Below are positions 7,533 through 50,747 of a stretch of DNA of 64,000 nt, in pieces. Position numbers and translations under genes: made by a program. Origin of the DNA: Actinoplanes teichomyceticus ATCC 31121 (GTDB lineage Bacteria; Actinomycetota; Actinomycetes; Mycobacteriales; Micromonosporaceae); assembly GCF_003711105.1 (NCBI RefSeq), contig NZ_CP023865.1, positions 6,865,001 to 6,929,000 of the forward strand. The letters are read 5' to 3'. The notes beneath the pieces are model-generated. The model was not told the DNA's origin and did no database searches. It was given only the letters and a program-made list of their open reading frames with translations. How positions within the stretch are numbered: position 1 is the first letter of the stretch; every line of letters begins with the position of its first letter.

Positions 7533-7880
7533 ATGGCCAAGCAGATAATTACCCTTCTGACCGACGACCTCGACGGCGGGGAGGCCGACCGCACCGTCGA
7601 ATTCGGACTCGACGGCGTGAACTACACGATCGACCTGTCCGAGAAGAACGCCGGCAAGCTGCGTAAGGCCCTGGAACCGTTCCTCACCGCGGCCACCCGG
7701 CTGGGCCGTTCCGGCGGCACTCCGGCCGTTGCCCGGCGGACCGCCCCGGCCGCCTCCAGCCGGACCAGCCGCGACCAGAATCAGGCCATTCGCGAGTGGG
7801 CCAACAAGAACGGCTACTCCGTTTCCGAGCGCGGCCGCATCCCGAGCAACGTCGTCGAGGCGTACCACGCCAAGCGCTGA
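7533..7880 (+). CDS. lsr2: Lsr2 nucleoid-associated protein
   Basis: 115-residue xenogeneic silencer that bridges DNA and prefers AT-rich sequence, a functional analogue of H-NS. The N-terminal dimerisation domain starts with [16 protein letters not shown]; the C-terminal DNA-binding domain carries the AT-hook-like RGR in [14 protein letters not shown] (about residues 100-113), joined by an Ala/Ser/Thr-rich linker. Length and both domains match the family. The upstream region is relatively AT-rich, consistent with autoregulation. A strong terminator follows 16 bp after the stop. Confidence 0.95.
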
Positions 7881-20829: not shown

Positions 20830-20931
20830 GATCAAGATCTTGTGCATAACTCTGTGGATGAGCCCCAGAAGTTGTGGAAAACACGAAAGGGTGGCCGCCC
20901 GACGGGCAATGTGTCGTACCCCTGAGGCACC
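20830..20931 (+). promoter_or_regulatory. AT-richer leader of the herA-sbcD-sbcC-nurA operon
   Basis: This segment is clearly less GC-rich than its flanks and contains TTGTGCATAACTCTGTGGAT and AGTTGTGGAAAACACGAAA. TGTGGATGA and TGTGGAAAA each resemble a DnaA box in reverse. No LexA/SOS box is visible. It is the only plausible promoter region for the operon; exact -10 and -35 elements are uncertain. Confidence 0.4.
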
Positions 20932-22680
20932 ATGATCGGCGTGTCTGACGAAACTTCCCCCGTCGGCCGGGTGCTCGGTACCGCCGATGCCACCCCGCTG
21001 CAGTTCTGGACGGCTGTCTCCCCGGGCAGCTACCTGCAGCTCGACGACGTCGTGGTGACCCGGCGCGACCTGCCGGACCGGGAGCCGGTGACGATCGCCG
21101 GGGTGGTCACCCAGGTCCGGGCCCGCCACGAGGGCGCCCAGTTCGACTCGGACGTGTTCGCCATCGCCGACGGCACGCTGCCGGCCATGGTCCAGGAGGC
21201 GGCGGAGATCACCACCACCCGGGTCGACCCGGAGCTGTACGTCCCGCCCGCCCCCGGCGCGATCGTGCACCGGGCCTCCGGCGAGGCCCGCGACGCCGCC
21301 CTGCACTTCGACCGGATGGAGCGGCGGGTCCCGATGGGCACCGGCCGCGACGGCGTCCCGGTCTTCCTGAACGCCGACTTCCTGGACGGCACCCGCGGCG
21401 CGCACGTCTCGATCTCCGGCATCTCCGGGGTGGCCACCAAGACCAGCTTCGCGACGTTCCTGCTCTACTCGGTGTTCCGGTCCGGGCAGCTGGGGGCCGA
21501 CGGGGCCAACGCCCGTGCGCTGATCTTCAACGTCAAGGGCGAGGACCTGCTCTTCCTGGACCATCCGAACACCAAGCTCGACGACGACACCCGGGCGTAC
21601 TACAAGCTGCTGGACCTGCCCGCCGCGCCCTTCGCCGACGTGCGCGTCTACGCCCCGCCGCGGGCCGGCGACTCGTCCGGCGCGCCCGACGTGAGCAGCC
21701 GGCTGACCGGGGTCGACGCGTTCTACTGGACGCTGGACGAGTTCTGCTCGGCGAAACTCCTGCCCTACGTGTTCGCCGACGCCGACGACGAGCGCCAGCA
21801 GTACACGATGGTGGTCCACTCGGTCACCGCCCACCTGCACCGGCACGCCGTCCCGGCCGAGGGCGGGATCAGCATCGACGGTCGCCGCATCGGGTCGTAC
21901 GCGGATCTCGTCGATCACATCGTCGACCAGCTCACCGACGACGAGACCCGGTCGACCTGGGCGGGCAGCGCGGTCAACATGGGCACGGTCAACGCCTTCG
22001 CCCGCCGCCTGATCGGCAGCAAGCGCGACCTGTCCCGGCTGATCCGCGGCGACCTGGCCCAGCGCCGCCCGCACCGGATCAAGACCGCGGACAGCGCCCA
22101 GGTCACCGTGGTCGATCTGCACAACCTGCCGGACCGCGCGCAGCGGTTCGTGGTCGGCGTGACGCTCAAGAGCGAGTTCGAGGAGAAGGAGAAGTCCGGC
22201 ACCGGGCGCCCGCTGCTGTTCGTGGTCCTCGACGAGCTGAACAAGTACGCCCCGCGCGAGGGCTCGTCCCCGATCAAGGAGGTGCTGCTGGACATCGCCG
22301 AGCGGGGCCGCTCGCTGGGCGTGATCCTGATCGGCGCGCAGCAGACCGCCAGCGAGGTCGAGCGCCGGATCGTCACCAACTCGGCGATCCGGGTGGTCGG
22401 CCGGCTCGACCCGGCCGAGGCCTCCCGCCCGGAGTACGGTTTCCTGCCGCCCGCCATGCGCCAGCGTGCCCTGCTGGCCCGCCCCGGCACGATGTTCGTC
22501 AACCAGCCGGACATCCCGGTCCCGCTCTGTGTGGAGTTCCCGTTCCCGGCCTGGGCGACCCGCAAGTCCGAGTCCGGTCCCCCGCCCGCCGAGACGCTCC
22601 GGTCGATCGTGCAGGGCGCCGACCCGTTCGCCGTGATCGGCGGCCGGGCCGGCGGCGCCGACGACGACATCCCCTTCTAG
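20932..22680 (+). CDS. HerA-like hexameric ATPase / DNA translocase
   Basis: 582 residues. The N-terminal region (to about residue 130) is consistent with the HerA beta-barrel domain. The ATPase core has an atypical Walker A, ISGISGVATKTS (about 162-173), which keeps the Lys-Thr-Ser but not the classical spacing. Walker B is VVLDELNKY (about 430), followed by the sensor-like GAQQTASEV and an arginine-finger-like GRLDPAEASRPEYG. HerA proteins form hexamers that drive NurA and Mre11-Rad50 on DNA ends. First gene of the operon, 20 bp before sbcD. Its own enzymatic activity needs testing because of the Walker A. Confidence 0.8.
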   Translation: MIGVSDETSPVGRVLGTADATPLQFWTAVSPGSYLQLDDVVVTRRDLPDREPVTIAGVVTQVRARHEGAQFDSDVFAIADGTLPAMVQEAAEITTTRVDPELYVPPAPGAIVHRASGEARDAALHFDRMERRVPMGTGRDGVPVFLNADFLDGTRGAHVSISGISGVATKTSFATFLLYSVFRSGQLGADGANARALIFNVKGEDLLFLDHPNTKLDDDTRAYYKLLDLPAAPFADVRVYAPPRAGDSSGAPDVSSRLTGVDAFYWTLDEFCSAKLLPYVFADADDERQQYTMVVHSVTAHLHRHAVPAEGGISIDGRRIGSYADLVDHIVDQLTDDETRSTWAGSAVNMGTVNAFARRLIGSKRDLSRLIRGDLAQRRPHRIKTADSAQVTVVDLHNLPDRAQRFVVGVTLKSEFEEKEKSGTGRPLLFVVLDELNKYAPREGSSPIKEVLLDIAERGRSLGVILIGAQQTASEVERRIVTNSAIRVVGRLDPAEASRPEYGFLPPAMRQRALLARPGTMFVNQPDIPVPLCVEFPFPAWATRKSESGPPPAETLRSIVQGADPFAVIGGRAGGADDDIPF

Positions 22681-22700
22681 GCCGGGACTAGGGTTCAGCG

Positions 22701-23852
22701 ATGCGCATCCTGCACACCTCCGACTGGCACGTCGGAAAGGTTCTCAAGGGCCGGAACCGCTTCGAGGAGCACACCCGGGTGCTCGCCCAGGTGATCGAGA
22801 TCGCCCAGGCGGAGCGGCCCGACCTGGTCATCGTCGCCGGTGATCTGTACGACACCGCCGCGCCGACGGCCGAGTCCACCCGCCTGGTGACCCGGGCGCT
22901 GTCCGCGCTGCGCAAGACCGGCGCCCGGGTCGTCGCGATCGGCGGCAACCACGACAACGGCCAGGCGCTGGACGCGCTGCGGCCGTGGGCCGACGCGGCC
23001 GGCATCGAGCTGCGCGGCTCGGTCCGGGAGAACCTCGGCGACCTGCTGATCGAGGGGACCACCGCGGCCGGCGAGCGCTGGCGGCTGGTCGCGCTGCCGT
23101 TCCTCTCCCAGCGGTACGCGGTCCGCGCCGCCGAGATGTACGAGCTGACCGAGGCCGAGGCGAACCAGACGTACGCCGATCTGATGGCCCGGCTGATCGC
23201 CAAGCTCAGCGAGCCGTTCGCCGAGCCCGGCGTGGTGAACCTGGTCACCGCCCACCTGACCATGGTCGGGGCGAGCACCGGCGGCGGTGAGCGGGAGGCG
23301 CACACCATCATGGGTTACGCGGTGCCGGCCACGGTCTTCCCGCCGAACGCGCACTACGTCGCCCTCGGTCACCTGCACCGCGCGCAGCGGGTGATCGCCC
23401 CCTGCCCGACCCGGTACAGCGGGAGCCCGCTCGCCGTCGACTTCGGCGAGGAGGAGAACGTCTGCTCGGTGGCGGTCGTCGACGTCTCCACCGACCGGGC
23501 CGCCCAGGTGCGCGACGTGCCGGTGACCTCGGCGCTGACCCTGCGTACCGTCCGGGGCACCCTGGAGCAGCTCGCCACGGTGAACCTTCCGGACGCCTGG
23601 CTGCGTGTCCTGGTCCGCGAGGCGCCCCGCCCCGGCCTGCGCGAGGACGTGCAGGAGCTGCTGCCGAACGCCCTGGAGGTCCGCATCGACCCGGACATGC
23701 TGCCCGATCGCGCGGGCGCCCGGTCGGCGCAACGCGCCGGTCGCTCCCCGCGCGAGCTCTTCGGCGACTACCTGGACAGTCGCGGCAACGCCGAGGACGG
23801 CGTCCGCGAGCTCTTCGACGAGCTGTACGACGAGGTGAGCAGCAACCAATGA
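22701..23852 (+). CDS. sbcD: Exonuclease SbcCD subunit D (Mre11-like)
   Basis: 383-residue metallophosphoesterase. All five phosphoesterase motifs are visible: SDWHVGK (residues 7-13), VAGDLYDT, GGNHDNG, TAHLTM and GHLHRAQ. These bind two metal ions for nuclease action on double-strand ends and hairpins. The C-terminal part is the capping domain. Its stop overlaps the sbcC start by ATGA. Confidence 0.93.
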   Translation: MRILHTSDWHVGKVLKGRNRFEEHTRVLAQVIEIAQAERPDLVIVAGDLYDTAAPTAESTRLVTRALSALRKTGARVVAIGGNHDNGQALDALRPWADAAGIELRGSVRENLGDLLIEGTTAAGERWRLVALPFLSQRYAVRAAEMYELTEAEANQTYADLMARLIAKLSEPFAEPGVVNLVTAHLTMVGASTGGGEREAHTIMGYAVPATVFPPNAHYVALGHLHRAQRVIAPCPTRYSGSPLAVDFGEEENVCSVAVVDVSTDRAAQVRDVPVTSALTLRTVRGTLEQLATVNLPDAWLRVLVREAPRPGLREDVQELLPNALEVRIDPDMLPDRAGARSAQRAGRSPRELFGDYLDSRGNAEDGVRELFDELYDEVSSNQ

Positions 23853-26347
23853 GGCCCATCAGGCTGGACATGTCCGGGTTCACGGTGTTCCGCGACCAGA
23901 CCACCGTGGACTTCACCGACGCCGACTACTTCGCCCTGGTCGGGCCGACCGGCTCGGGCAAGTCGACGGTGCTGGACGCCATCTGCTTCGTCCTCTACGG
24001 CCAGGTGCCGCGCTGGGGCGGCGCCCGGGGCATCGGCAACGCGCTCGCCCCGTCCGCGGCCGAGGCCCGGGTCCGGCTGGTCTTCGAGTCGGCCGGCGAC
24101 CGCTACGTCGCGACCCGGGTGGTCCGCCGCGACGGCCGCGGCAACGTCAAGACGTCCGGCGCCGGGCTGCAGCTGATGCCGCCCGGCTTCGACGTGACGA
24201 AACTGGACACCGGCATGGACCTGGCCGACCTCGGCGAGGTGCTGGCCGGTGTCCCCGCCGAGATGGACGAGGCGGTGCAGACCGCGGTCGGCCTGCCGTA
24301 CGAACAGTTCACCAGCTGCGTGGTGCTGCCGCAGGGGCAGTTCGCCGACTTCCTGCACGCCAAGCCGGCCACCCGCCAGCAGATCCTGGTGAACCTGCTG
24401 GGCCTGCAGATGTACGAGAAGGTGCAGGTCCGGGCGGCCGAGCGGGGCAAGGCCGCGGACGCCAAGCTGACCGTGGTGGACCAGTCGCTGGCCGCGCTGG
24501 AGGACGCCACCGACGAGGCGGTCGAGGCCGCCGCCGCGCACCTGGAGCGGATGCGCGGGCTGACCGCCGCGGTGGAGGCGGCGGTGCCGGGACTGCGGAC
24601 GGCCCGGGCGGCCGAGGAGACCGCCCGCGGCGCCCGCGACACCCTGGACGCGGAGCTGCGGCAGCTGGCGGCGGTGCGTACCCCGCCGGGGCTGGCCGAG
24701 GCCACCGGGGCGGTCACCGCGGCCCGCGACGCCGCCGCGCGCGCGGCGCAGGCCGTGCACGAGGCCGAGGAGGCCGAGGAGAAGGTCCGCGGTGAGCTGG
24801 TCGCGGCCGGCGACCCCGGATCGCTGCGCCTGGCCCTGGACCGGCACACCGAGCTGGCCCGGCTGACCGAGCAGGAGGGCTGGTTCGCCGGCAAGGTGTC
24901 GGTCGCCGAGGTGGAGTGCCGCGACGCCCGCGCCGCGGCCGATCTGGCCGAGTCCGAGCACCTCGGCGCCCAGCAGCTGCTCGAACAGGCCCGGCAGGAC
25001 TACCGCGACGCACAGCAGCTGGACCGCGCCGCCGCGCTGCGCGGCCACCTGGTCGCCGGGCACCGGTGCCCGGTGTGCGAGCAGACCGTGACCGTGGTGC
25101 CGCGGGTGCCGCGCGAGTCGGCGGTGCGGCTGGCCGAGGCGGCCGGCGCCGCCGCCCGGGAGGCCGCCGAGCAGGCCGCCGCCCGCTGGCAGCAGCGCGA
25201 CGCGGTGGCCCGCAACCTGGAGAGCGACCTGGAGCGCAAGCGTGGGCAGTACGAACACCATCTGACCCGGCTCGCCGAGGTCCGCAAGGCCGTGCAGGGG
25301 CTGCCCGGGGTGGCGGCGATCGAGGAGCGGCTCGCCGAGTTCGGCCGGTTGCAGCGCCGGCTGGAGGAGGCGGCCACCGCGGTGCGCGCCGCCCGGGACG
25401 GGTTGCGCTCGGCGCAGGCCGGCGTCCGGGCCGCCGAGGAGCAGCAGCGTGCCGCGTGGCGCACCTTCGATTCGGTACGCGACGGCCTGGCCCGTTTCGT
25501 GCCGCCACCGGCCGACCGGGACGACCTGGCCGGCGCGTGGCGGGCCCTGGTCGAGTGGGCCGGCGCCGAGCACGGCGCCCGCTCGGCGGCCCGGGACGAG
25601 GCGGAGGCCGCCGTGGTCGCCGCGCACGAGGCGACGGCCGGCGCGCACGCGGCGATCGTGGCGCTGTTCACCGAGGCCGGGGTGCAGGCCCCGGCCGCCT
25701 CGCCGGCCGACGCCGAGGCCACCCTGATCCGGGCCGCCGCGGTCGCCGCGGAACGCGCCGAGGCTGCCTGGCAGCGCCTGGCGGAGCGGCACGCGCAGGC
25801 CCGCGAGCAGCAGGAGCAGCGGATGCTGCTGCAGCGGGAGAGCCGGGTGGCGAAGGCGCTCGCCGGGCACCTGCGGGCGAACAACTTCGAGCGCTGGCTG
25901 CTGGAGGAGGCGCTGGACATGCTGGTCGACGGCGCGTCCCGGATCCTGCGGGAGCTCACCGGCGGGCAGTACGAGCTGATGCACGACAAGGGCGAGTTCT
26001 TCGTGATCGACCATCACGACGCCGGGCTGCGCCGGGGGGTGCGCACGCTTTCCGGCGGCGAGACGTTCCAGGCGTCGCTGGCCCTCGCCCTGGCCCTGTC
26101 CGAGCAGCTCGCCGGGATGAGCACCACGGCGGCGAGCCTGGAGTCGATCGTGCTGGACGAGGGCTTCGGCACGCTGGACGCGGCGACGCTGGACGTGGTC
26201 GCGGCGACGCTGGAGAACCTGGCCGCCCGCGGCGACCGGATGGTCGGGCTGGTCACCCACGTGCACGCGCTGGCCGAGCGGGTGCCGGTCCGGTTCGAGG
26301 TGCACAAGGACGCGCGGACCGCGCACGTCGAGAGGGTCGGCCTGTGA
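23849..26347 (+). CDS. sbcC: Exonuclease SbcCD subunit C (Rad50-like SMC ATPase)
   Basis: 832 residues. Walker A GPTGSGKST is at residues 32-40, the Q-loop in VLPQGQFADFL, and long Ala/Glu/Arg-rich coiled coils flank the zinc hook CPVC near residue 409. The ABC signature LSGGETF lies near 733 and Walker B in SIVLDEGFGTLDA near 770. With SbcD it tethers and processes DNA ends. Length is shorter than E. coli SbcC (about 1050) because the coiled coils are shorter. The next gene starts within the stop codon region. Confidence 0.93.
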   Translation: MRPIRLDMSGFTVFRDQTTVDFTDADYFALVGPTGSGKSTVLDAICFVLYGQVPRWGGARGIGNALAPSAAEARVRLVFESAGDRYVATRVVRRDGRGNVKTSGAGLQLMPPGFDVTKLDTGMDLADLGEVLAGVPAEMDEAVQTAVGLPYEQFTSCVVLPQGQFADFLHAKPATRQQILVNLLGLQMYEKVQVRAAERGKAADAKLTVVDQSLAALEDATDEAVEAAAAHLERMRGLTAAVEAAVPGLRTARAAEETARGARDTLDAELRQLAAVRTPPGLAEATGAVTAARDAAARAAQAVHEAEEAEEKVRGELVAAGDPGSLRLALDRHTELARLTEQEGWFAGKVSVAEVECRDARAAADLAESEHLGAQQLLEQARQDYRDAQQLDRAAALRGHLVAGHRCPVCEQTVTVVPRVPRESAVRLAEAAGAAAREAAEQAAARWQQRDAVARNLESDLERKRGQYEHHLTRLAEVRKAVQGLPGVAAIEERLAEFGRLQRRLEEAATAVRAARDGLRSAQAGVRAAEEQQRAAWRTFDSVRDGLARFVPPPADRDDLAGAWRALVEWAGAEHGARSAARDEAEAAVVAAHEATAGAHAAIVALFTEAGVQAPAASPADAEATLIRAAAVAAERAEAAWQRLAERHAQAREQQEQRMLLQRESRVAKALAGHLRANNFERWLLEEALDMLVDGASRILRELTGGQYELMHDKGEFFVIDHHDAGLRRGVRTLSGGETFQASLALALALSEQLAGMSTTAASLESIVLDEGFGTLDAATLDVVAATLENLAARGDRMVGLVTHVHALAERVPVRFEVHKDARTAHVERVGL

Positions 26348-27309
26348 GGATGTACGTCGACGCGTGGGACCCGTCTTACGGGTCGTCGTTCGAGGGCGGG
26401 GACGGCGAGGGGCCGGCCTCGCCCAGCAGCGCGCAGGTGGACACCGATGTGGAGGTGCCGGCCGCCGAGTGGGCGCCGGTCGGGGCGCCGGTCGGCGCCC
26501 GCCCGCCGGACGTGGTGTTCCTGGTCGACGGCGTGCGGCGCAACGACGCCGGATTGTGGACGGCCGAGGAGGACGGCACGTCGTATCCCGGGCTGGCGGC
26601 GTCGTACGCGGCCGGGGTGGTCCGCTGCGACCTGGCCCGCGGAGTCGCCGAGCTGGTCGGCGCCCGGGTCGGCCGGGGCCTGTTCACCGCCAGCCCCACG
26701 GCCGGCGATCTGCAGGCGGGCACGGTCCGCTACGAGATCCACCGGATCAACGGCAGCGGCGAGGCGAGCAAGCTGCCGGCCGCCGTGCAGGGGCCGCTGA
26801 CCGCGCTGGAGATCGAGATCTCCAGCGCGGCGCGGGACGGCGGCTCGGATGGCGCCGACCTGCTGATCGTGGACGGGCCGCTGCGCAACCGGCGGCAGCT
26901 GCCGCGCACGATCGGCTATGTCAAGACCCAGCAGAAGCAGTACCTTCCCGCCGCGCTCACCACCGTGGTCACCGCGTTGCGGCCGGGCCAGCGCACCCCG
27001 GTCTTCCATCTCGGCACGGTGTGGGGCGGCTGGTCGTGGTATCTGCGGCTGCCCGGGGCGACCGGGGCGCCGTGGTCCGGCATCGTCCGGGTGGAGTGCT
27101 CGCCGGAGCTCAGTGTCGACCAGGCGGTGGAGCTGGCCGGGTTGTCCAGCGCGACGCTGCCACGGTTCGCGTCGGCGTCGTACAAGGATCCGCGGGCCCC
27201 GCAGAATCTCGTGCCGATCGCGGGCCTGGAGCGGCGGCTGCGGGGAATGCTCGGCGACGCCCGAGTCCTGCACCGGGCCCTGACGCTGGCGACCGCCCGA
27301 TCGCGCTGA
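26344..27309 (+). CDS. nurA: NurA-domain nuclease
   Basis: 321 residues from the GTG that overlaps the sbcC stop (GTGA); an ATG 6 bp later is the alternative. The N-terminal acidic motif is FLVDGVRRND (D62) and a second is LLIVDGPLRNRR (D177), the two aspartate strands of the RNase-H-like NurA fold, with GYVKTQQKQYL after it as in family members. NurA is a 5'-3' nuclease that works with HerA in DNA-end resection. Position directly after HerA-like, SbcD and SbcC genes strengthens the call. A tandem repeat starts at its stop codon. Confidence 0.83.
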   Translation: MRMYVDAWDPSYGSSFEGGDGEGPASPSSAQVDTDVEVPAAEWAPVGAPVGARPPDVVFLVDGVRRNDAGLWTAEEDGTSYPGLAASYAAGVVRCDLARGVAELVGARVGRGLFTASPTAGDLQAGTVRYEIHRINGSGEASKLPAAVQGPLTALEIEISSAARDGGSDGADLLIVDGPLRNRRQLPRTIGYVKTQQKQYLPAALTTVVTALRPGQRTPVFHLGTVWGGWSWYLRLPGATGAPWSGIVRVECSPELSVDQAVELAGLSSATLPRFASASYKDPRAPQNLVPIAGLERRLRGMLGDARVLHRALTLATARSR

Positions 27310-45764: not shown

Positions 45765-46832
45765 ATGCAGCTGCCGATCATGCCACCGGTCAAGCCGATG
45801 CTCGCCAAGCCCGTCGCCGACATCCCGCCGGGACAGATCTACGAGCCCAAGTGGGACGGCTTCCGGTCGATCATCTTCCGGGACGGCGACGAGGTGGAGA
45901 TCGGCAGCCGCAACGAGAGGCCGATGACGCGCTACTTCCCCGAGGTGGTGGCCGCGGTGCTGGCCAACTTCCCGGACCGGTCGGTGATCGACGGCGAGGT
46001 GATCGTCGCCGACACCGGGCGCAACACCCTCGACTTCGAGGCGCTGCAGCAGCGGATCCACCCCGCGGCGAGCCGGGTCAAGCTGCTCTCCGAGCAGACC
46101 CCGGCCGGCTTCGTCGCCTTCGACCTGCTGGCGATCGGCGACGAGGACCTCACCGAACTGCCCTTCGGGCAGCGCCGGGAACGCCTGCTGCGGGCGCTGG
46201 CCGAGGCCCGGCCTCCGGTGTACGTCACTCCGGCCACCGACGACCTCGCCACCGCCCGGCGCTGGTTCGACGAGTTCGAGGGCGCCGGGCTGGACGGGCT
46301 GATCGCCAAGGGGCGTGATCTGACCTACCAGCCGGACAAGCGGGTGATGTCCAAGATCAAACACAAGCGCACCGCGGACTGCGTGGTGGCCGGCTACCGG
46401 GTGCACAAGTCGGCCGAGAACCGGATCGGGTCGCTGCTGCTCGGCCTCTACGACGAGCGGGACGTGCTGGTCTCGGTCGGGGTGATCGGCTCGTTCCCGA
46501 TGGCGGTCCGCGAGGAGCTGTTCGAGCAGTTGCAGCCGCTGGTCACCGGCTTCGAGGGGCATCCGTGGAACTGGGCCGCGCACGAGCAGGGCGAGCGTAC
46601 CCCGCGCAAGAATGAGGTGAGCCGGTGGAACGCCGGCAAGGATCTGTCGTTCACCCCGCTGCGCCCCGAGCGGGTGGTCGAGGTCCGTTACGACTACATG
46701 GAGGGGCCCCGGTTCCGGCACACCGCCCAGTTCGAGCGCTGGCGGCCCGACCGCGAGCCCCGCACCTGCACGTACGAACAGCTGGAACGCCCGGTGCGCT
46801 TCGACCTGGCCGAGGTGCTGACCAGCCGCTGA
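45765..46832 (+). CDS. ligC: ATP-dependent DNA ligase LigC
   Basis: 355 residues: nucleotidyltransferase domain with the adenylated lysine K29 in YEPKWDGFR, motif IDGEVIV, motif FDLLAIG, and SKIKHKRTADCVV, followed by an OB-fold domain ending VEVRYDYMEGPRFRHTAQ. LigC ligases seal nicks in base-excision repair or backup end joining. No Ku or polymerase is fused; a LigD-type polymerase gene lies 3 kb downstream on the other strand. Head-to-head with the MerR gene. Confidence 0.9.
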   Translation: MQLPIMPPVKPMLAKPVADIPPGQIYEPKWDGFRSIIFRDGDEVEIGSRNERPMTRYFPEVVAAVLANFPDRSVIDGEVIVADTGRNTLDFEALQQRIHPAASRVKLLSEQTPAGFVAFDLLAIGDEDLTELPFGQRRERLLRALAEARPPVYVTPATDDLATARRWFDEFEGAGLDGLIAKGRDLTYQPDKRVMSKIKHKRTADCVVAGYRVHKSAENRIGSLLLGLYDERDVLVSVGVIGSFPMAVREELFEQLQPLVTGFEGHPWNWAAHEQGERTPRKNEVSRWNAGKDLSFTPLRPERVVEVRYDYMEGPRFRHTAQFERWRPDREPRTCTYEQLERPVRFDLAEVLTSR

Positions 46833-46898
46833 CGGCGGATGTCGTACCGACCGGCTAGCCTCGTGGCGCAAGGTCCCCGAAGTCGAAAGGGTCGCGTC

Positions 46899-49721: not shown

Positions 49722-50747
49722 TCAGGGTGCCGTCCTGCGGTCACGGTCCTTGGACGGCTGGACCCGCTTGGGCTCCCCCGGCATCTTGGGGTGGTCCGGC
49801 GGGTACGGCATGTCCCCCAGCCCGGCCCGCTCGTCCCGCTCCACCCACTCCAGCAACGGCGTGAGGTCGTGCCCGGTGTCGTCGATCCCGGCGTGTGGGT
49901 CGCCGACCGTGGCGATCCGTTTCGGCACGGTCCGCAGGTCGAAGTCGTCCGGTTCGACCCGGGTCAGCTCGTCCCAGGTGACCGGGGTGGAGACGGTGGC
50001 CCGGGCGTTGGCCCGCAGGGAGTACGCGCAGGCGATGGTGCGGTCCCGCGCCATCTGGTTGTAGTCCAGGAACACCTTCCGGCCGCGCTCCTCCTTCCAC
50101 CACGCCGTGGTGATCGCGTCGGGCCGGCGCCGCTCCACCTCCCGGGCCAGTGCGATCGCGGCCCGGCGCACCTGGACGAAGTCCCACCGCGCCGCGATCC
50201 GGACGTAGACGTGCACGCCCCGCCCGCCGGACGTCTTCGGGTAGCCGGTCCAGCCCAGCTCGTCGAGCACCTCGCGGACCACCCCGGCAGCCGCCACCAC
50301 GTCGCCGAAGCCGAGCCCGGGTTGCGGGTCCAGGTCGATGCGCAGCTCGTCCGGGTGGTCCGGCGCGGCCCCACGCACCGGCCACGGGTGGAACACCACG
50401 GTGCCCATCTGCGCGGCCCAGGCGACGTGCGCCAGGTCGGCGGGGCAGAGCTCCTGGGCCGTACGCATGCTGGGGAACCGGATGGTGGCGGTCCGGACCC
50501 AGTCGGGCACGCCGCGGGCCGGGATCCGTTTCTGGAAGAACGCCTCGCCGCCGAGGCCGTCGGGGAAGCGTTGCAGCGTGGTGGGCCGGTCCCGCAGGGC
50601 GCGCAGGATGCCGTCACCGACCGCCAGGTAGTACTCGAAGACGTCTCGCTTGGTGTATCCCGGCCCGGCGAAGACCACCTTGTCCGGGCTGGTCAGGCGG
50701 ACGGTGTGGCCGGCGATCTGATGCTCTTCCGCGGCGGCTTTCGGCAT
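49722..50747 (-). CDS. LigD-type polymerase domain protein (stand-alone PolDom)
   Basis: 341 residues of the archaeo-eukaryotic primase fold. Catalytic acidic motif LRIDLDPQPG, followed by GVHVYVRI and the later metal-binding Asp in KVFLDYNQMARDRTIACAYS. In mycobacteria such stand-alone polymerases (Prim-PolC type) fill short gaps and work with LigC and Ku. No ligase or 3'-phosphoesterase domain is present. A Ku gene is not in the window. Confidence 0.9.
   Translation of the reverse strand: MPKAAAEEHQIAGHTVRLTSPDKVVFAGPGYTKRDVFEYYLAVGDGILRALRDRPTTLQRFPDGLGGEAFFQKRIPARGVPDWVRTATIRFPSMRTAQELCPADLAHVAWAAQMGTVVFHPWPVRGAAPDHPDELRIDLDPQPGLGFGDVVAAAGVVREVLDELGWTGYPKTSGGRGVHVYVRIAARWDFVQVRRAAIALAREVERRRPDAITTAWWKEERGRKVFLDYNQMARDRTIACAYSLRANARATVSTPVTWDELTRVEPDDFDLRTVPKRIATVGDPHAGIDDTGHDLTPLLEWVERDERAGLGDMPYPPDHPKMPGEPKRVQPSKDRDRRTAP

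Follow-up and report, generated by a model that had tools for sequence, protein, structure and literature searches.

A putative damage-inducible HerA-SbcD-SbcC-NurA operon in Actinoplanes teichomyceticus and its conservation in Actinomycetota

Introduction

HerA-NurA, SbcCD and the operon that combines their functions, described mainly in thermophilic archaea, are already known, as is the presence of sbcD and sbcC after hepA in Oceanithermus profundus. In Sulfolobus acidocaldarius, Mre11, Rad50 and HerA are reported to co-precipitate (PMC2288612), and in S. islandicus all four genes of the set are reported to be essential (PMC4351679). The best described bacterial case is that of Deinococcus radiodurans, in which HerA-NurA is reported to translocate duplex DNA, to digest mainly the 5' strand while moving and to work without SbcCD (PMC9960219). 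Here, we describe a block of HerA, SbcD, SbcC and NurA genes in the soil actinobacterium Actinoplanes teichomyceticus, which lies in a 64-kb stretch of DNA (bases 6865001-6929000 of the 8.29-Mb genome, on one contig) that we refer to as the window.

Bacterial HerA-NurA has been placed in Deinococcus-Thermus (PMC12977600) and described as occurring "only in a few bacteria", with its connection to SbcCD left open (PMC4663267). In the excerpts available of two actinobacterial sources, the repair genes listed for Micromonospora include sbcC and sbcD and lack HerA and NurA (PMC5765111), and a table for Kocuria rhizophila includes herA, sbcC and sbcD without NurA (PMC13388538). A role in a damage regulon has been reported for the RecA-NDp/PafBC promoter motif (PMC6789036, PMC8223512). 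In the open-licence literature, we found no paper on actinobacterial HerA-NurA and no description of the block in actinobacteria, of how nearly universal it is in one family, of the two gene orders or of the damage-type promoter.

Results

The preliminary description of the window, which was made from the sequence alone, proposed a four-gene block running in one direction with a 20-bp gap and two 4-bp overlaps, and frames and junctions confirm this layout (Table 1): HerA and SbcD are separated by 20 bp, SbcD and SbcC overlap in ATGA, and SbcC and NurA overlap in GTGA, with NurA forming the last part of a longer plus-strand frame ending at 27309. The gene positions given there also hold, except for the HerA start, for which GTG 20941 is likelier than ATG 20932 because the ATG overlaps a conserved promoter-like element ending at 20933; the GTG lies 7 bases downstream of this element. 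With four tightly spaced genes in one direction the block has the layout of the archaeal operon, and the spacing suggests that all four genes are read as one transcript. The arrangement is not due to chance because, among 80 named loci (the best of 180 found with HerA), 69 contain all four genes in identical order and strand, and the other 11 break off inside SbcC, at most 62 bases from the stored end. SbcD and SbcC overlap or touch in 67 of the 80 loci and SbcC and NurA in 38 of the 69; isolated gaps measure 1561 and 909 bp.

Table 1. Features of the HerA-SbcD-SbcC-NurA locus (positions in the window)
Feature	Position	Strand	Basis or remark
Three DnaA-box-like 9-mers	20841..20881		TGTGCATAA at 20841; TGTGGATGA at 20853 (near match only); TGTGGAAAA at 20873
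Promoter-like element TGTCGTAC-N8-CACCAT, RecA-NDp/PafBC type	20912..20933	+	Pattern conserved across family loci; recurs before repair genes
HerA, Deinococcus type	20941..22680	+	Likely leaderless GTG start at 20941; open frame from 20932
SbcD (Mre11 type) nuclease	22701..23852	+	Frame, family models, motifs
SbcC (Rad50 type) ATPase, CPVC hook	23849..26347	+	Frame, family models, motifs
NurA nuclease, RNase H-like fold	26344..27309	+	Structure matches, conserved residues; start GTG 26344 or ATG 26350

SbcD matches TIGR00619 above the model cut-off (7.6e-52) and SbcC matches TIGR00618 under it (6.5e-77). HerA has no match in Pfam and only matches far below cut-off in NCBIfam, and NurA has no match in NCBIfam and a single one in Pfam (E 0.086, below cut-off), and source databases use the name "hypothetical protein" or, in the case of UniRef, "NurA domain-containing protein". 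Because both libraries miss HerA and NurA and the names are uninformative, the module is easily overlooked. HerA and NurA do match chains of 7f6d, the D. radiodurans HerA-NurA structure, for HerA with an E of 1.4e-149 and over almost its full length; the HerA of Actinoplanes palleronii is 96% identical to that of the window. By structure comparison NurA shows the NurA fold, that of D. radiodurans NurA, as the preliminary description had supposed. The same description spoke of an archaeal-like machine, which is apt for the gene content of the operon and not for its products: all four proteins are of bacterial types, the closest matches in the PDB being D. radiodurans HerA-NurA and bacterial SbcD, and archaeal models score far lower.

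The active sites are intact. The D. radiodurans HerA residues reported as K175, T176, K217, D220, R495, R513 and R552 are all kept, as K170, T171, K202, D205, R442, R460 and R499, and a Walker B pair (D434/E435) is present in the alignment and invariant in 16 aligned rows, so that the Walker A lysine and threonine, the Walker B acidic pair, the trans arginine and the pore arginines are all found in HerA. The reported catalytic D53, K201 and R309 of D. radiodurans NurA are likewise kept, and D62, K194 and R284 of NurA are invariant in an alignment of 85 rows (A1), which consists of the NurA of the window, 11 of 120 proteins, 8 locus translations and 65 of 120 further proteins. SbcD has intact phosphoesterase motifs, and SbcC has Walker A, CPVC hook, signature and Walker B. 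In a simple motif search of linked loci, the HerA Walker A and B patterns and the SbcD patterns were found in 55 of 55, the SbcC hook pattern in 51 of the 52 loci of sufficient length, and the three NurA patterns in 48, 33 and 50 of 54.

The block is not specific to this strain and is near-universal in Micromonosporaceae: NurA is present in 100 of 101 sampled genomes of this family, and the lone miss is a genome in 430 contigs. In the class sample HerA occurs in 20 of 296 genomes, spread over four families; 12 of 13 class loci contain all four genes in the order of the window and the thirteenth is cut by a contig end. In a phylum sample of 296 Actinomycetota genomes, 77 match HerA at 1e-15, and removal of 21 genomes of a single family (f18) with a distant HerA leaves 56 that we count as HerA-type genomes. 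The co-conservation for which the preliminary description had asked is evident here, with NurA present in 54 of the 56 (in one as a 36-residue fragment only) versus 0 of the 240 others. SbcD is present in 55 of the 56 and also in 46 of the 240, and hence is common in itself. NurA and SbcD both lie at most 25 kb from HerA on the same strand in 48 of the 56 genomes (in two with slightly overlapping hits), a count that includes two genomes (G050 and G072) with distances of 10-18 kb; the remaining eight include at least six in which HerA or SbcD runs to a contig end. All four genes lie inside the fetched piece in 34 of 40 phylum loci and occur in two orders, HerA-SbcD-SbcC-NurA (n=13) and NurA-HerA-SbcD-SbcC (n=21). 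Linkage holds in both gene orders and at HerA identities of about 50%. The distant HerA that recurs in the 21 genomes set aside has 27-34% identity where aligned, and near it, at the two loci examined (L152 and L153), no NurA, SbcD or SbcC was found above threshold.

The two gene orders track phylogeny. In a NurA tree of 55 rows they form the two sides of one branch with a Shimodaira-Hasegawa-like approximate likelihood ratio test (SH-aLRT) value of 99, and in a HerA tree of 61 rows a branch with support 76 has the second order as one of its sides. The HerA-linked SbcD is also a lineage apart from the usual SbcD of the class: among 148 class genomes, 86 have SbcD at 1e-20, and in 11 of these SbcD is at least 48% identical to that of the window, all 11 genomes carrying HerA, while the remaining class SbcD genes are at most 39% identical to it. 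In a 77-row SbcD tree, in which the 19 unlinked loci all come from the class, 18 of the 19 fall behind a branch with support 100, and the nineteenth (L211), from a genome with two SbcD genes (G172), forms a long branch among the linked rows. Of four further HerA-less SbcD genes chosen by hand, those of G039, G137 and G244 fall among the linked rows and that of G099 among the unlinked ones; all of these trees, including those of NurA and HerA, are quick ones with long branches. In G039, G137 and G244 (L279-L281) SbcD lies beside SbcC, with no HerA or NurA nearby. We therefore abandoned the idea that HerA always accompanies SbcD of the linked lineage: G172, G039, G137 and G244 contradict it, and the lineage characterizes the block without being confined to it. 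These genomes may have lost HerA-NurA, or SbcCD may have moved alone. The genome of the window has a single SbcD at 1e-15, and two other HerA-bearing genomes carry both kinds. The trees do not distinguish gain of the block from its loss and do not decide between recent transfer and old inheritance.

The promoter-like element upstream of HerA takes the form TGTCGTAC-N8-CANNAT in the family. Near the HerA start, the pattern TGTCR-N11-YANNNT occurs in nearly all family loci (78 of 79; 0.87 expected) and in a smaller share of other class loci (3 of 12; 0.13 expected) and of phylum loci (7 of 37; 0.50 expected); among these ten matches outside the family, six lie at most 45 bases from the start (L120, L126, L131, L132, L133 and L155) and the other four at about 100 bases or more. 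This pattern was derived from the same HerA upstream sequences in which it was counted and, therefore, we checked it elsewhere, genome-wide. TGTCRNAC-N8-YANNNT has 74 copies in the genome of the window versus 12 for the reversed pattern. We examined 50 of the 74 places (L229-L278; 30 given as loci and 20 chosen by eye from 44), and all of the 43 that have a downstream frame by a set rule were compared with family libraries. The frame begins 6-8 bases past the element in 17 of the 43, a spacing that would fit leaderless genes. Clear repair genes account for 13, namely recA, uvrA, uvrB, dinB (DNA polymerase IV), lexA, radA, a 5'-3' exonuclease, an exonuclease/polymerase, rmuC, endonuclease IV, an RNase T/GIY-YIG protein and two AlkZ-like glycosylases, and four more encode HNH, Mrr-type, primase-polymerase or helicase proteins. 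The other 26 are of mixed or no known family, including transporters and metabolic enzymes, and part of the 74 places are therefore surely due to chance.

Because the element upstream of HerA also precedes recA, lexA, uvrA, uvrB, dinB and radA, the operon probably belongs to a LexA-independent, PafBC-type damage regulon. The spacing of the element and its targets fit the RecA-NDp/PafBC motif. The exact LexA box GAAC-N4-GTTC does not occur in the 64-kb window and the relaxed palindrome is at chance level there; scans for sigma-70 promoters and terminators gave no useful signal. The genome-wide set of TGTCRNAC-N8-YANNNT places outlines the likely RecA-NDp/PafBC regulon of Actinoplanes.

An alignment of 11 upstream regions revealed an array of DnaA-box-like 9-mers upstream of the damage-type element; within the family, this array is kept only among Actinoplanes-side loci. 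TTNTNCACA is present in at least one copy in 38 of 43 Actinoplanes-side loci, in two or more copies in 31 of them, and in 1 of 12 class loci, and is absent from 35 other family loci and 39 phylum loci; the 78 family loci contain 69 matches versus 0.36 expected.

The genome also encodes adjacent AdnA and AdnB proteins, as the preliminary description had anticipated, as well as Ku. Their best PDB matches, 7sjr_A (8.6e-172) and 6ppu_B (1.1e-243), are labelled UvrD/Rep helicases, and we take these structures to be mycobacterial AdnAB. Since AdnAB coexists with HerA-SbcCD-NurA, the organism has at least two candidate resection machines. The C-terminal part of AdnB was found in 43 of the 296 genomes, including 6 of the 56 HerA-type genomes; as distant AdnB outside the class may be missing from this count, it does not establish that HerA and AdnAB exclude each other. 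The context of LigC, a LigD-type polymerase and Lsr2 recorded earlier is likewise present: an ATP-dependent, LigC-like ligase at 45765-46832, a LigD Prim-Pol at 49722-50747 on the minus strand and, at 7533-7880, a protein that we presume to be Lsr2-like from a sequence motif. A second copy of the damage-type element (46840-46861) directly follows the LigC-like gene, where the frame of an alpha/beta hydrolase begins. The neighbouring genes included in a Pfam scan are housekeeping or regulatory.

Discussion

Combining the locus, conservation and promoter data, we suggest, with a probability of about 0.7, that the locus is a DNA-damage-inducible operon for the resection of double-strand-break ends, in which SbcCD and HerA-NurA act jointly. 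In this model, (i) damage would induce transcription from the RecA-NDp/PafBC-type promoter just upstream of HerA, and the module would rise together with recA, lexA and uvrAB and work beside AdnAB and Ku, (ii) SbcCD would hold the ends and cut next to blocked or hairpin ends, (iii) a HerA hexamer would pump duplex DNA into a NurA dimer, and (iv) NurA would digest the 5' strand to leave a 3' tail for RecA. The analysis establishes the identity of the genes, the integrity of their active-site residues, the NurA fold, long-lasting linkage and the common promoter element; from these and the described relatives we infer induction, the identity of the regulator, the hand-over from SbcCD to HerA-NurA, the strand polarity and the joint action of the four proteins.

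Several observations weigh against this model. By the alignment used, the HerA-NurA contact residues tested in D. radiodurans are mostly not kept: one of three acidic HerA contact residues is kept and two are not, and of eight alignable basic NurA contact positions one is identical, one is a K-to-R change and the rest are not kept. R154 and R96 of D. radiodurans HerA are not kept either. These contact residues are reported to align poorly in other bacteria (PMC9960219), and both partners have probably drifted at the contact. SbcCD of the linked lineage occurs without this type of HerA or NurA in G172, G039, G137 and G244, and therefore the partnership is not obligate. Outside the family, the damage-type element is absent near HerA at most loci. 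Among the described systems, deletion of nurA-herA is reported to make D. radiodurans about 10-fold more resistant to high doses of ultraviolet light and mitomycin C (PMC9960219), the Thermococcus enzyme is reported to cleave both strands (PMC12977600), and NurA was reported absent from the Sulfolobus co-precipitate (PMC2288612).

The genomes with SbcCD alone could also be read as evidence for two independent machines in one operon, with SbcCD clearing hairpins and blocked ends, HerA-NurA acting separately and linkage reflecting common regulation only; most of the class relies on ordinary SbcCD and has no HerA-NurA, and the D. radiodurans pair is reported to be active without SbcCD (PMC9960219). 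Given that linkage outlasts the change in gene order and the divergence of HerA, and that archaeal Mre11-Rad50 is reported to bind HerA (PMC2288612), we regard this reading as unlikely. The resistance of the D. radiodurans deletion (PMC9960219) would also fit a module that limits or checks repair, or that destroys DNA that is foreign or broken, and does not promote recombination, with anti-phage HerA systems as its functional kin. An antiviral role has been proposed for archaeal HerA-NurA (PMC12977600), and among PADLOC defence models there are weak, partial matches to HerA (best mad8 2.8e-8, HerA 5.3e-6) and a likewise weak match of SbcC to mad3 (2.4e-26). However, NurA has no match to the PADLOC models, the block is near-universal in one family, unlike defence genes, its Pfam-scanned neighbours are housekeeping or regulatory, and its promoter element is common to recA, lexA and uvrAB, all of which makes a restraining or defensive role quite improbable.

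The DnaA-box-like array, with TTNTNCACA far above expectation in the 78 family loci, raises the possibility that expression is tied to replication through DnaA and not to damage. Since TTNTNCACA is missing from all 35 other family loci and all 39 phylum loci, whereas the damage-type element is present in 78 of 79 family loci, we give this explanation hardly any weight, although DnaA-type and damage-type control could act together. We favor damage-induced, joint resection by SbcCD and HerA-NurA. A broader proposal, which we advance tentatively and at somewhat less than even odds, is that HerA-SbcD-SbcC-NurA is an old and widespread resection machine of Actinomycetota that was inherited and rearranged largely as a unit, is damage-induced in this lineage and works beside AdnAB. 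The genomes with SbcCD of the linked lineage alone lower these odds slightly. If the proposal holds, bacterial HerA-NurA would be more than a small import from archaea into Deinococcus-Thermus, and bacterial SbcCD would hand ends to HerA-NurA, as thought for archaeal Mre11-Rad50.

New in this analysis is the damage-type element upstream of HerA, which is common to repair genes of the genome. In a mesophilic, antibiotic-producing family, NurA is present in nearly every sampled genome and the block is complete in every complete named locus. The block follows a damage-type promoter and coexists with AdnAB, which makes the connection between SbcCD and HerA-NurA addressable in this family.

D. radiodurans HerA-NurA (7f6d, 7wrw, 7wrx) resembles the proteins described here in HerA over almost its full length, NurA fold and catalytic and pore residues and mostly differs from them in the contact residues; the pair was deleted as an operon for which sbcCD is not mentioned in the available text (PMC9960219), whereas here SbcCD lies between HerA and NurA. 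The archaeal operon of Sulfolobus encodes the same four functions, and the S. islandicus genes are named in the order herA-mre11-rad50-nurA (PMC4351679); its proteins are archaeal and those described here are of bacterial types, and levels in S. acidocaldarius reportedly appear constitutive (PMC2288612), in contrast to the damage-type promoter found here. The actinobacterial RecA-NDp/PafBC regulon agrees with the set described here in the spacing of its element and in targets that include recA and uvrA, but no HerA-NurA member is named in the available part of its description (PMC8223512), and in this family the -10-like part upstream of HerA is CANNAT, not TANNNT. A further comparison is hepA-sbcD-sbcC of Oceanithermus profundus, in which a bacterial HerA gene is followed by sbcD and sbcC as in the window, while in Thermus nurA is reported to precede hepA (PMC5448004), as in the second actinobacterial order; these bacteria belong to another phylum, NurA comes last in the window, and the likeness is one of description, not of sequence.

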